Source: an uncultured Verrucomicrobia subdivision 3 bacterium
GTDB lineage: Bacteria > Verrucomicrobiota > Verrucomicrobiia > Limisphaerales > UBA11358
Length of the DNA stretch: 64,000 bases
Direction: 5' to 3'
Assembly (NCBI GenBank): GCA_903917705.1
Contig: CAIXBQ010000131.1
Coordinates: 1-64,000 of the forward strand
Part shown: piece after piece, positions 50,802 through 54,224 of the stretch
Position numbering within the stretch: position 1 is the stretch's first letter
How the letters are laid out: each line of letters opens with the position of its first letter
Position numbers and translations under genes: made by a program
The notes under the pieces: model-generated
What the model was told of the DNA's origin: nothing
The model's database searches: none
What the model saw: the letters and a program-made list of their open reading frames with translations, nothing else

Positions 50802-51323
50802 TCAAACACTTAACGATTTGACAAAAATCCGCCACACCAGCACAAACGCGCTCGCGAAATCCTCCGGCGTTTCCGCCACCCAGCTCGTCACCGTCTCCGG
50901 CGCGAACCATCCGCCCGACTCGATCTCCTCCGGGTGCAGCGCGAACGGCCCCTCCGCCTCCGTGCGATACACCCAGCAAAACTCCCAGCCCGTCTCCGGG
51001 CGCGCGTCCAGCTTGAAGAGTCGCGCCAACGGCCGCGCCGCCGCCGCCGGCAGGACCAGGCCGAGCTCCTCGCGCAGCTCGCGCACCGCGCACGCGTCGT
51101 AGGCCTCGCCCGCATCCACGTGGCCGGACGACGACGAATCCCACTTGCCCGCCGACGAATCCTTTTTCATGGACCGCTTCTGGAGGAACACCGCCCCGCG
51201 CGCATTGAACACCAGCACATGCACCGCCCGATGTTTCAAGCCGAGCCGATGCACCTCGCCCCGCGTGTTCTGGCCCGTCACCGCGTCGCGGTCATCCACC
51301 ACGTCAAAGATTTCCTCGCTCAT
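50802..51323 (-). CDS. NUDIX hydrolase
   Basis: GHVDAGEAYDACAVRELREELGLV Nudix box. Start taken at MSEEIFDVV. Confidence 0.93.
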   Translation of the reverse strand: MSEEIFDVVDDRDAVTGQNTRGEVHRLGLKHRAVHVLVFNARGAVFLQKRSMKKDSSAGKWDSSSSGHVDAGEAYDACAVRELREELGLVLPAAAARPLARLFKLDARPETGWEFCWVYRTEAEGPFALHPEEIESGGWFAPETVTSWVAETPEDFASAFVLVWRIFVKSLSV

Positions 51324-51605
51324 GCCCCGCACCATAAACCGCCGCGCCGCCAAAATCGAAATAAATTTCCCGCCGCCCGCGCCGCCCGCCATCCACAGGA
51401 ATGATCCATAAGGCACAGCCTTTAACTTGACAAGTGACCAAGGCTATGGCCTAATAGCCGGCGTCACCCACGGGTTTTCTATGAAGCTTAAGACTTCCCA
51501 CTTTGCTTCAGGTGAACTTTATTTTCGTGCGGTCAAAATCCCCGTCAGCCAGACACCCCCTAACCGACCCGTCACCGCCAAACCGCTTGGCCGGACCGAC
51601 CATTT

Positions 51606-51815
51606 CAGACCTGCAAACCCCACCCGCATGCGTCCGGCAGCCCCTTTCAGACCTGCAAACCCCATCCGCACACGTCCGGCAGCCCTTTGCAGACCTGCAA
51701 GCCCCAGCCGCATCCGTCCGGCAGCCCCTTGCAGACCTGCAAGGCCCACCCGCATGCGTCCGGCAGCCTCTTGCAGACCTGTAAACCCCACCCGCACGCG
51801 TCCGGCAGCCCCTTA
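51606..51815. repeat. 42-bp tandem repeat, five copies
   Basis: CAGACCTGCAAACCCCACCCGCATGCGTCCGGCAGCCCCTTT-type units begin at 51606, 51648, 51690, 51732, 51774; partial sixth follows. Confidence 0.95.
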
Positions 51816-51921
51816 CAGAACTGCCGACATTGCGCTTGTGGCTGTTAACCAGCCATTTAGCCGGATTGACCCCGTTTCCAGCCGAAATTTCAGCCAGTTA
51901 ACACCAAACAAATAAAATCAT

Positions 51922-52773
51922 ATGCCAACTCGAAGACTAGCCAACTCCATCGCCTCCGCCATGCTCGTCCTCACCACCGCCCGGAACGAATGGAAAAACA
52001 CCCCCGTGCTCGCCAACCGCGCCATCAGCGCCGAACAGTGGGCCCAACTCGATGACACCATCCCCGGCAACCTCCTCAACCGGTTTATCCGCCAGAACGG
52101 AATTGTGGACAACGCCATGGCCGCCCAGGTGCCCGTCACCGCCAGCGTCGAAGCCTGCGCCAAACGGCTGGGCATGACCGTCTCGCATTTTCATCAGGTG
52201 TTTGACTTGGGCGTGGCCCGCGGCGTGTTCGCCGCCGGTGCGCGCAGCTATTACCAGCGCCCCGCCAACGCCACCTCCATACCCGAGCTCAAGAGCTACG
52301 ACGCCATCACCACCGCCGCCGGGCATGTGGTCGCCGGCGAAGCCGCCCGCGCGCAGGCCGAGGGCCATCCCGCCACCTACGACAGCGGCATTGCCTACGA
52401 CAGCGGGGTAAGGTTCGATTCCATCACCGGCTATGTGGCCATGGCCCTGCCGAGCGCCGCCGAAGTGGGCACCCTGCTCGGGCAATTCACCACCCTGCGC
52501 GCCGAAAGCAACGACGTGCTGGTGGACACCGACACCCAGCGCGAAATCTTGCAGCCGATTTATACCGACGCGCTCGCGCTGGCCGAGGATATTTACGACA
52601 CCGTGGAATATTTCTATCGCAAAGACCCGAGCGATTCCAGCCGCCGCCAGAAATGCGAGCGCTGGGGCGTGGTCTATGTGGCCGAAGCCGTCCCCGCCAC
52701 GCCGCCGCCCACGCCCCCGCCGACCACGACGCCCACCACCACCCCCGCGCCCACGCCCACGCCGCCGGCGTGA
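51922..52773 (+). CDS. Hypothetical protein with Pro/Thr-rich C-terminal tail
   Basis: 283 aa ORF (MPTRRLANSIASAMLVLTTARNEWKNTPVL...) with tail PATPPPTPPPTTTPTTTPAPTPTPPA. No recognised family. Confidence 0.75.
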   Translation: MPTRRLANSIASAMLVLTTARNEWKNTPVLANRAISAEQWAQLDDTIPGNLLNRFIRQNGIVDNAMAAQVPVTASVEACAKRLGMTVSHFHQVFDLGVARGVFAAGARSYYQRPANATSIPELKSYDAITTAAGHVVAGEAARAQAEGHPATYDSGIAYDSGVRFDSITGYVAMALPSAAEVGTLLGQFTTLRAESNDVLVDTDTQREILQPIYTDALALAEDIYDTVEYFYRKDPSDSSRRQKCERWGVVYVAEAVPATPPPTPPPTTTPTTTPAPTPTPPA

Positions 52774-52781
52774 ACCAAAAC

Positions 52782-52843
52782 GGGTAGGGCTGACCTGCTG
52801 GTCAGCCCCAATATTAGGGCGGCGCAGCAGCGCCGCCCTACCA
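52782..52843. repeat. Paired perfect hairpins, REP-like or terminator-like
   Basis: GGGCTGACC-TGCT-GGTCAGCCC (52787-52808) and AGGGCGGCGC-AGCA-GCGCCGCCCT (52816-52839). Outer GGTAGGGC/GCCCTACC also pair. Confidence 0.7.
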
Positions 52844-52986
52844 CAGCCTTGGAGGCCGTCTTTTTGTGAATCCGCTTGGCAAGGCGGGCGAAAGGGCGTA
52901 AACCACCGTAGCCGCTGCCCCTGAAACTGAAGCTGCAAATACAAAAAAGGATTCAGGATAGGCCGCAATATTTCAAGACAAGACCT

Positions 52987-53294
52987 GTTAGGCGTCATGC
53001 GGAGCGTCACATGAAAACCAGCACCAGATTCATTATATTTCTGAGCCTGATTGTGGTTTATGTTGGTCTCGTTAGATTGACTGGCGTAAAGTTTCAAGTG
53101 TTTTCAGGTCGTTATAGCGGGTCGGGGATTGATATTTTTATCCTCGCTGATTGGGCCGCGTGTTTTTGGTCTGGGCCGTTTGTTGGGCCGATGGATCCAT
53201 ATCCATATCGTTCGACATGTGCGTTCATCGGCGGTTTGGGGATGATAGCACTTTCATTTTTTAAATTTGTGATATTACGATGATGACGCCTACC
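52987..53294. repeat. Inverted repeat TAGGCGTCAT/ATGACGCCTA flanking a small ORF, integron-core-like
   Basis: GTTAGGCGTCAT at 52987-52998 and ATGACGCCTACC at 53283-53294, read directly. Confidence 0.5.
53011..53283 (+). CDS. Small hypothetical membrane protein (90 aa)
   Basis: MKTSTRFIIFLSLIVVYVGLVRLTG... hydrophobic N- and C-termini; visibly less GC-rich than flanking genes. Confidence 0.6.
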   Translation: MKTSTRFIIFLSLIVVYVGLVRLTGVKFQVFSGRYSGSGIDIFILADWAACFWSGPFVGPMDPYPYRSTCAFIGGLGMIALSFFKFVILR

Positions 53295-53327
53295 AGATTT
53301 GATGAGAAGGCAGAGGCCCTAAAGTTG

Positions 53328-54224
53328 TCACTCACCCTTAGCGGCGAGGAGTTGGGTCAGGGCGACGAATTGTTCCAGGGTCAGTTTCTCGGCGCGTTCC
53401 TGCGGTGAGATGCCCAGCCGGGCAAAGGCGGCCTCCAGCTTTTCCTTGGGCCAGTCGGCTTTCAGCAGCTTCAGCATCATCTTGCGCCGTTGCGAAAAGC
53501 CGCGCTTCACAATCTTCACAAAGTCGGCCCGCAGCGCCGTCGGCAGCAGCGGCTCGGCCCGCCGCTCCAGATGCACACACGCGGAATCCACGTCGGGCGA
53601 GGGGAAAAAACATTCGGGCGGGATCTTGAACCAGCCGCGCGGCTGGAAATCGATCTGCACGAGCAGGGTCAGGATGCCGTAATCGTCGTCGTCGGCCTGC
53701 GCCATGAGCCGCCGCGCGACTTCGAGCTGGAGGGTGGCGACGATGCGCCGGGGCGCGCGCGGGCCGGCGGCCAGCTCCACCAGTATGGGCGAGGCGACGG
53801 AATAGGGGAGATTGGCGACGAGCTTCCAGTCGCGCCAGTCGCGCGGTTCGCGCTTGAGAAAGGCCAGGGCGTCGTCGTGGAGCAGGACGAGGTTGGTCGC
53901 GGCGGCAGCGGCGTCCGCGGGCTCGCCGGCGGCGGGGGCGGGCAGTTCATCGGCCTTGGTGGTCAGGCCGAAGCGTTCGCATAAAACTTCCACGAGCCGC
54001 TCGTCCAGCTCGATGGCGAGGACTTCGCGGGCTTTGGGGAGGAGCAGTTCGGTCAGCGGGCCGAGGCCGGGGCCGATTTCGAGGATCTGGTCGTCGGGCT
54101 GGATTTCGGCGGCGTCCACGATGCGGCGGAGCTGGTTGCCGTCGTGCAGAAAATTCTGGCCGAGGGAGCGGGTGAGTTGGATGTCGCGCTTGGCCAGCAG
54201 CTCGCGCATTTCGGTGAGGGTCAT
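53328..54224 (-). CDS. rsmA: 16S rRNA (adenine(1518)-N6/adenine(1519)-N6)-dimethyltransferase
   Basis: RSLGQNFLHDGNQLRRIVDAAEI, ILEIGPGLGPLTELLL, LVANLPYSVASPIL. Confidence 0.96.
   Translation of the reverse strand: MTLTEMRELLAKRDIQLTRSLGQNFLHDGNQLRRIVDAAEIQPDDQILEIGPGLGPLTELLLPKAREVLAIELDERLVEVLCERFGLTTKADELPAPAAGEPADAAAAATNLVLLHDDALAFLKREPRDWRDWKLVANLPYSVASPILVELAAGPRAPRRIVATLQLEVARRLMAQADDDDYGILTLLVQIDFQPRGWFKIPPECFFPSPDVDSACVHLERRAEPLLPTALRADFVKIVKRGFSQRRKMMLKLLKADWPKEKLEAAFARLGISPQERAEKLTLEQFVALTQLLAAKGE

Follow-up and report, generated by a model that had tools for sequence, protein, structure and literature searches.

A probable relic integron unit beside rsmA in an uncultured verrucomicrobial genome: a single IS-capped gene cassette at an attI-like site

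Positions 52956 to 53319 of the window (the whole 64,000-nt stretch of DNA that was analyzed, located on contig C131 of a 3.76-Mb draft genome) very probably represent a relic integron unit, that is, a single IS-capped cassette borne on an attI-like site with no integrase gene (intI) nearby; we put the probability of this reading at roughly 0.88. The unit is neither a complete integron nor a CALIN but a former cassette at an attI-like site, a structure of known kind in an unusual state. A first-pass annotation had proposed a degraded or orphan cassette here, and that proposal is supported by the attI-like site, by homology to a related genome that is bounded by the cores, and by an attC capped by an IS. 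The annotation did not see the left boundary as attI-like or the right boundary as the end of an IS.

On the forward strand, the core site GTTAGGC, a match to the integron consensus GTTRRRY that is invariant in seven aligned attI-like sites, occupies positions 52987 to 52993, 17 nt 5′ of the ATG (53011) of an open reading frame (ORF) for a 90-aa protein (53011 to 53283, forward strand). The longer left motif, GTTAGGCGTCAT, ends 12 nt 5′ of this ATG, and the right motif, ATGACGCCTACC, starts at 53283, the final base of the TGA stop codon. These positions are as first annotated, and the inverted repeat described around the ORF (CTGTTAGGCGTCAT/ATGACGCCTACCAG) is also present and extends over 14 nt, of which 13 are complementary. 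The AT richness claimed for the ORF is likewise borne out, with a G+C content of 0.45 over 53000 to 53299 versus 0.63 to 0.70 in the flanking genes. In composition-shuffled copies of 52800 to 53500, 14-nt pairs of equal quality occurred at a mean of 0.027 per shuffle, and 1.7% of shuffles had at least one. The real sequence has two, and the inverted repeat taken alone is only suggestive as boundary evidence because the second pair in the same 700 bp (52850/53424) is unconnected with the ORF. The GTCAT/ATGAC extension outside the 7-bp cores is probably a coincidence, since it is absent from the related copy in genome G065 described below. Single-strand folding of both boundaries was no better than that of shuffles, and an Rfam scan of the region gave chance matches only. 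The boundaries become convincing through the recurrence of each of them elsewhere in the genus.

The encoded protein is hydrophobic and probably membrane bound and belongs to no known family, with no match in Pfam or NCBIfam and no relative in a scan of genome contigs. The dN/dS of the gene is 0.15 to 0.20, which indicates that it is maintained under purifying selection and that the protein has probably been kept functional. Weak N-terminal matches to proteins of 350 to 390 aa resembling von Willebrand factor A proteins, which have in common with the 90-aa protein one hydrophobic stretch and a GIDI motif, were treated as chance.

A search of 320 genomes of the order found one full-length homologue of the protein, 81% identical, in G065. 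The corresponding DNA match covers positions 53004 to 53291 of the window and nothing outside them, and the surrounding genes in G065 are different. The right end of the homology falls inside the first attC core at 53291 (GCCT); its left start lies 11 nt past the attI core, and the intervening stretch of about 11 nt (52994 to 53003) has no match to G065. An attC of 34.7 bits (E value, 7e−8) ends at the start of the G065 homologue. The two loci therefore share a core-bounded unit that appears to have moved independently of its flanks, which supports the identification of the ORF as a former integron gene cassette. One rival reading, in which an unremarkable foreign or orphan gene next to rsmA happens to lie within a chance inverted repeat, draws on the second 14-nt pair of equal quality and on the lack of an intact attC or intI at the locus. 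It is mainly refuted by the recurrence of both boundaries beside different genes in other genomes and by the restriction of the G065 homology to a core-to-core stretch next to an attC, which leaves it very improbable.

Comparison of the flanks points in the same direction. To the right, outside the cassette, lies rsmA, encoding the 16S rRNA dimethyladenosine transferase (53328 to 54224, reverse strand; RrnaAD, E value of 8.5e−48). Among named sequences, those closest to this rsmA come from metagenome-assembled genomes of uncultured Verrucomicrobia subdivision 3 (Limisphaerales). The ORF had been described as upstream of rsmA; because rsmA is on the minus strand, it in fact lies beyond the rsmA 3′ end. 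To the left, also outside the cassette, is a gene (50802 to 51416, reverse strand) whose product we take, from a reading of its sequence, to be nudix hydrolase-like and which has matches of 58 to 73% identity beside rsmA in 14 relatives. The two genes are neighbors in all 14 relatives with a comparable rsmA flank, separated by only 0 to 90 bp in seven of them and by different intervening sequence in the others, compared with 1.9 kb in the window. Neither the cassette nor its boundaries were found between them in any of the 14. An ordinary resident gene is therefore unlikely, since relatives have the nudix-like gene and rsmA adjacent without the ORF. Two outcomes had been named in advance as evidence against a cassette: conservation of the gene beside rsmA in relatives, which is contradicted by its absence from the 14 compared, and a lack of related boundaries elsewhere, which are present both in this genome and in the genus.

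About five 42-bp units (CAGACCTGCAAACCCCACCCGCATGCGTCCGGCAGCCCCTTG) are arrayed in tandem at 51606 to 51824, just before a 283-aa ORF (51922 to 52773) of no known family with a Pro/Thr-rich tail. Two adjacent palindromes (GGGCTGACC...GGTCAGCCC and TAGGGCGGCGCAGCAGCGCCGCCCTA; 52783 to 52843) are members of a repeat family with many copies in this genome and its relatives. At an attI-like site in G010, an upstream repeat-coded stretch likewise precedes a gene with a Pro/Ala-rich tail.

A DNA search with 52775 to 53330 matched positions 52956 to 52994 at 85 to 95% identity in G010, G019 (twice), G005 (twice), and G052. On this basis, the left boundary is delimited as a 38-bp attI-like site (52956 to 52993, forward strand) with its exchange point between G52987 and T52988. 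The block common to the seven aligned sites consists of GGATAGGCCGCAATAATTCAATACAATACCTG, followed past the exchange point by TTAGGC, and has 27 invariant columns; the sequence 3′ of it differs at every locus, each copy preceding a different gene. The copy in G052 lies directly upstream of intI, between an integron integrase of 420 bits, read in the opposite direction, and the first attC-bearing cassette. Several other integrons of the set have GTTAGGC at about 171 to 195 nt from the integrase match, with upstream sequence that partly aligns with the left motif. The left boundary is called attI-like by homology because of the G052 copy before intI and this partial alignment at other integrase-linked GTTAGGC sites, an assignment that thus relies on one close integrase-linked copy and on more divergent ones that align in part. 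A sequence model of the site (R1), which includes the window copy, scores that copy at 49 bits. The left motif was first suspected of being the right end of the same IS that caps the cassette, but it precedes intI in G052 and heads arrays with attCs in G010 and in G013, positions that spoke for an attI instead.

Insertion by an integrase at a nonclassical genomic target (attG), rather than at a real attI, would be compatible with the lack of intI beside the window site, and cassettes at attG sites are likewise scattered through genomes away from the integrase, according to the passages on Loot et al. (2024) in PMC12444791. The sites described here differ from attG, as characterized in those passages, in having 38 bp, and often a leader of more than 100 bp, in common, which scattered attG targets would not; moreover, the shared site occupies the attI position of an integrase in G052. 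We consider an attG origin improbable.

In seven related attI leaders, the motif TG(G/T)ACA-N17-TAAAC(C/T) occurs with almost constant spacing relative to attI. A weaker version of it is present in the window (TTGGCA, a 17-nt spacer, and TAAACC; 52876 to 52904, forward strand), about 32 nt farther upstream than in the related leaders, and is possibly a weak Pc-like cassette promoter. Between the attI core and the start codon (52994 to 53010; TCATGCGGAGCGT), 13 nt match a weak attC candidate on contig C59 of the same genome (L043, 480 to 589), and this stretch may be the tail of the attC of a lost first cassette.

At the right boundary, an attC remnant at 53288 to 53296 (forward strand), consisting of the first core, GCCTA-C, and the spacer CAG, is recognizable when the window is aligned with six further loci in which the sequence is GCCTAAC(C/A)AG. 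The resemblance of GCCTACC to GCCTAAC that had been pointed out does reflect an attC first core, from which one A has been lost. The remnant is followed by the left end of an IS110/IS1111-type element, ATTTGATGAGAAGGCAGAGGCCC (53297 to 53319, forward strand), with the target junction located to within about 3 nt. The same left end opens intact or longer elements in G032, G027, G014, G019, and G033, and it follows GCCTAAC in at least six loci. The longer stretch 53271 to 53319, with GCCTAACCAG and then ATTRGATGAGAAGGCAGA as the common sequence, recurs after different genes in G027, G014 (twice), G018, and G019. An intact layout is found in G032, where GCCTAACAAG is followed by the element and then by AGTCGCCGGAGCC...CGTTAGGC, the rest of the attC; this arrangement places the element in the attC just after the first core. 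Its left end is followed by a 374-aa frame, presumably an IS110-like transposase, and it has subterminal repeats, ATGAGAAGGCA/TGCCTTCTCAT. Assignment to the IS1111-attC group is based on the layout of the insertion and on this presumed likeness to IS110, and the intact G032 example shows both a fixed place inside attC and subterminal inverted repeats. That group (Tetu and Holmes, 2008, and Post and Hall, 2009, as cited in PMC12444791 and PMC11187229) comprises DEDD-type elements that have subterminal inverted repeats and occupy one end of an attC, and the element described here would share all three properties. The window differs in retaining only about 23 bp of the left end: the remainder of the IS and of the attC is gone, and the end of rsmA follows eight bases further on.

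A covariance model (R2) built from twelve attCs of the group and run with filters off found no credible attC in 52500 to 53600, the best hit (10.2 bits) being an unrelated palindrome. A complete attC was thus rightly reported as not evident. The lack of an attC score, which had been listed among the results that would tell against a cassette, has a visible cause: an attC-targeting IS, of which the left end remains, interrupts the attC immediately behind the first core. The nature of the two ends also bears on a further possibility, namely, that the gene is carried by a small transposon whose termini are short inverted repeats. Although 14-nt inverted ends do flank the gene, the two ends are different conserved sequences that occur separately, no target duplication is seen, and the 19-nt left end was found nowhere else in the genome at up to three mismatches; such a transposon is extremely improbable.

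Integrons are common in the group. Integrases above the family cutoff were found in 19 of the 59 related genomes searched, and full integrons, with attI-like sites, cassettes, and cores, are present in the same genus. The attCs of the group have the form GCCTAAC...GTTAGGC; in the folded form, both the cores and the inner arms are paired, with unpaired bases separating them. The genome to which the window belongs has attCs on contigs C73 (59.7 bits) and C122 (36.2 bits) and a weaker candidate on C59. The last contig also encodes a divergent IntI-like recombinase (L043, 1871 to 2870) at the family cutoff, with the integron-specific segment LVELPGRLAHKYKNANRELRWQWLFPS; no clear cassette array was found on this short contig. 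A second attI-like site, GGATAGGCTGCA...CTGTTAGGC, is found on C73 (L183, 116 to 460), followed by a gene for a 94-aa membrane/zinc-ribbon-like protein and by GCCTAAT. The attCs, the second attI-like site, and the IntI-like gene together indicate that cassettes are scattered in this genome. A tyrosine recombinase on C73 was considered as a candidate IntI and rejected for want of the integron-specific segment. Elsewhere on the same contig (L183, 2892 to 3231), there is a separate unit composed of GTTAGGC, a gene, and an attC.

Set against known systems, the unit has the attI-like site, the one-gene cassette in the usual orientation, and the GTTRRRY/RYYYAAC core boundaries of a chromosomal integron (intI, attI, and cassette array), its attI being recognized by homology. 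It differs in having a single gene, a destroyed attC, and no nearby intI, there being no intI-like match in the window by tblastn. CALIN and single-attC loci are IntegronFinder classes defined by attC (PMC9024848). Like the window, these are cassettes without a neighboring integrase; unlike them, it lacks an attC, at least one complete copy of which defines a CALIN, and has an attI-like site, a feature outside the description of those classes. The delta-attI-type cassettes of mobile integrons (PMC12901181) also have an attC that is missing and replaced by other sequence, but they are still in integrons and carry the attI piece downstream of the gene, whereas here the attI-like site is upstream and an IS end is downstream.

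The favored history of the relic unit begins with an integron integrase, which would have joined a circular cassette carrying the small membrane protein gene to attI by attC × attI exchange between the G and TT of GTTAGGC. Transcription of the gene would then probably have started at a promoter next to attI. Subsequently, the cassette attC would have received, just past its first core, an insertion of an IS110/IS1111-type element of the kind that targets one end of attC sites, and a deletion reaching as far as the end of rsmA would have taken out nearly all of the IS together with what was left of the attC. Since the locus lacks both a complete attC and an integrase gene in its vicinity, the cassette would no longer be excisable, and the gene is probably stuck in place as a fixed chromosomal gene. 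The attI-like site, the core-bounded cassette, the IS end, the lack of a full attC and of a nearby intI, and the insertion relative to syntenic relatives can be read directly from the sequence; we infer the order of these events, the use of the promoter, the loss of mobility, and the production of the protein. Counting against this history are the lack of both a nearby intI and a full attC, which prevents a demonstration of recombination capacity, the stretch of about 11 nt that the G065 homology leaves unaccounted for, the single full-length homologue, the 66% completeness of the genome, and the dependence of the attI assignment on one close integrase-linked copy.

The attI-like sites of the relatives raise a wider possibility. 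The model of the left site has matches in 22 of 146 genomes, the weakest of which are probably chance, with several copies in G017 and two each in G005, G010, G019, and G071. With the exception of G052, none has intI within about 1.5 kb, which leaves a single intI-linked locus among about 20 attI-like ones. The G017 copies have 120 to 320 bp of upstream sequence in common up to the exchange point and then diverge. Both G019 loci have the layout of the relic unit (attI-like site, one gene, GCCTAAC, and IS left end), and in G013 the attI-like site is followed by a cassette with a full attC, a second cassette, and the IS left end. Decayed attI-like sites in G017 (L164, C60) and G003 (L169, C112) lie beside a conserved 2.7-kb block and are followed by different genes; as evidence of different genes at an orthologous site, these two decayed copies are suggestive only. 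The L164 site additionally ends in a decayed IS left end. After the gene, the orphan loci L115 and L117 (both G005) and L162 (G017) end in a shared sequence of more than 100 bp, GCCTAACA(T/C)CTATCAAGC(A/C)CGATAGTT(T/C)AATAG, which is perhaps the end of a second attC-targeting element.

These integrase-less attI leaders, present in several copies per genome and each before a different gene, appear to have some novelty. They could be docking sites that an integrase encoded at another locus of the genome loads in trans, in which case the integron of the genus would be a distributed one, with several copies of a promoter and attI leader served by one integrase and an attC-targeting IS that then caps and fixes the cassette. 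The rarity of intI beside the sites fits this tentative idea, as do the several G017 leader copies with different genes and the orphan sites of G010 with full attC arrays, the integrase in both genomes being elsewhere. It is made rather doubtful by G005, G013, and G019, which have orphan sites and no integrase above the cutoff, and by the decay of many copies. A similar picture would result if older integrons had lost intI, leaving the orphan sites as remains of whole integrons, or from breaks in draft genomes.

The relic unit illustrates a route by which a mobile cassette may become a fixed chromosomal gene, with an attC-targeting IS destroying the excision site. Integron finders that seek intI and attC miss units of this kind, because neither is intact. 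If orphan attI leaders can indeed be loaded in trans, integrons could work as multisite platforms.
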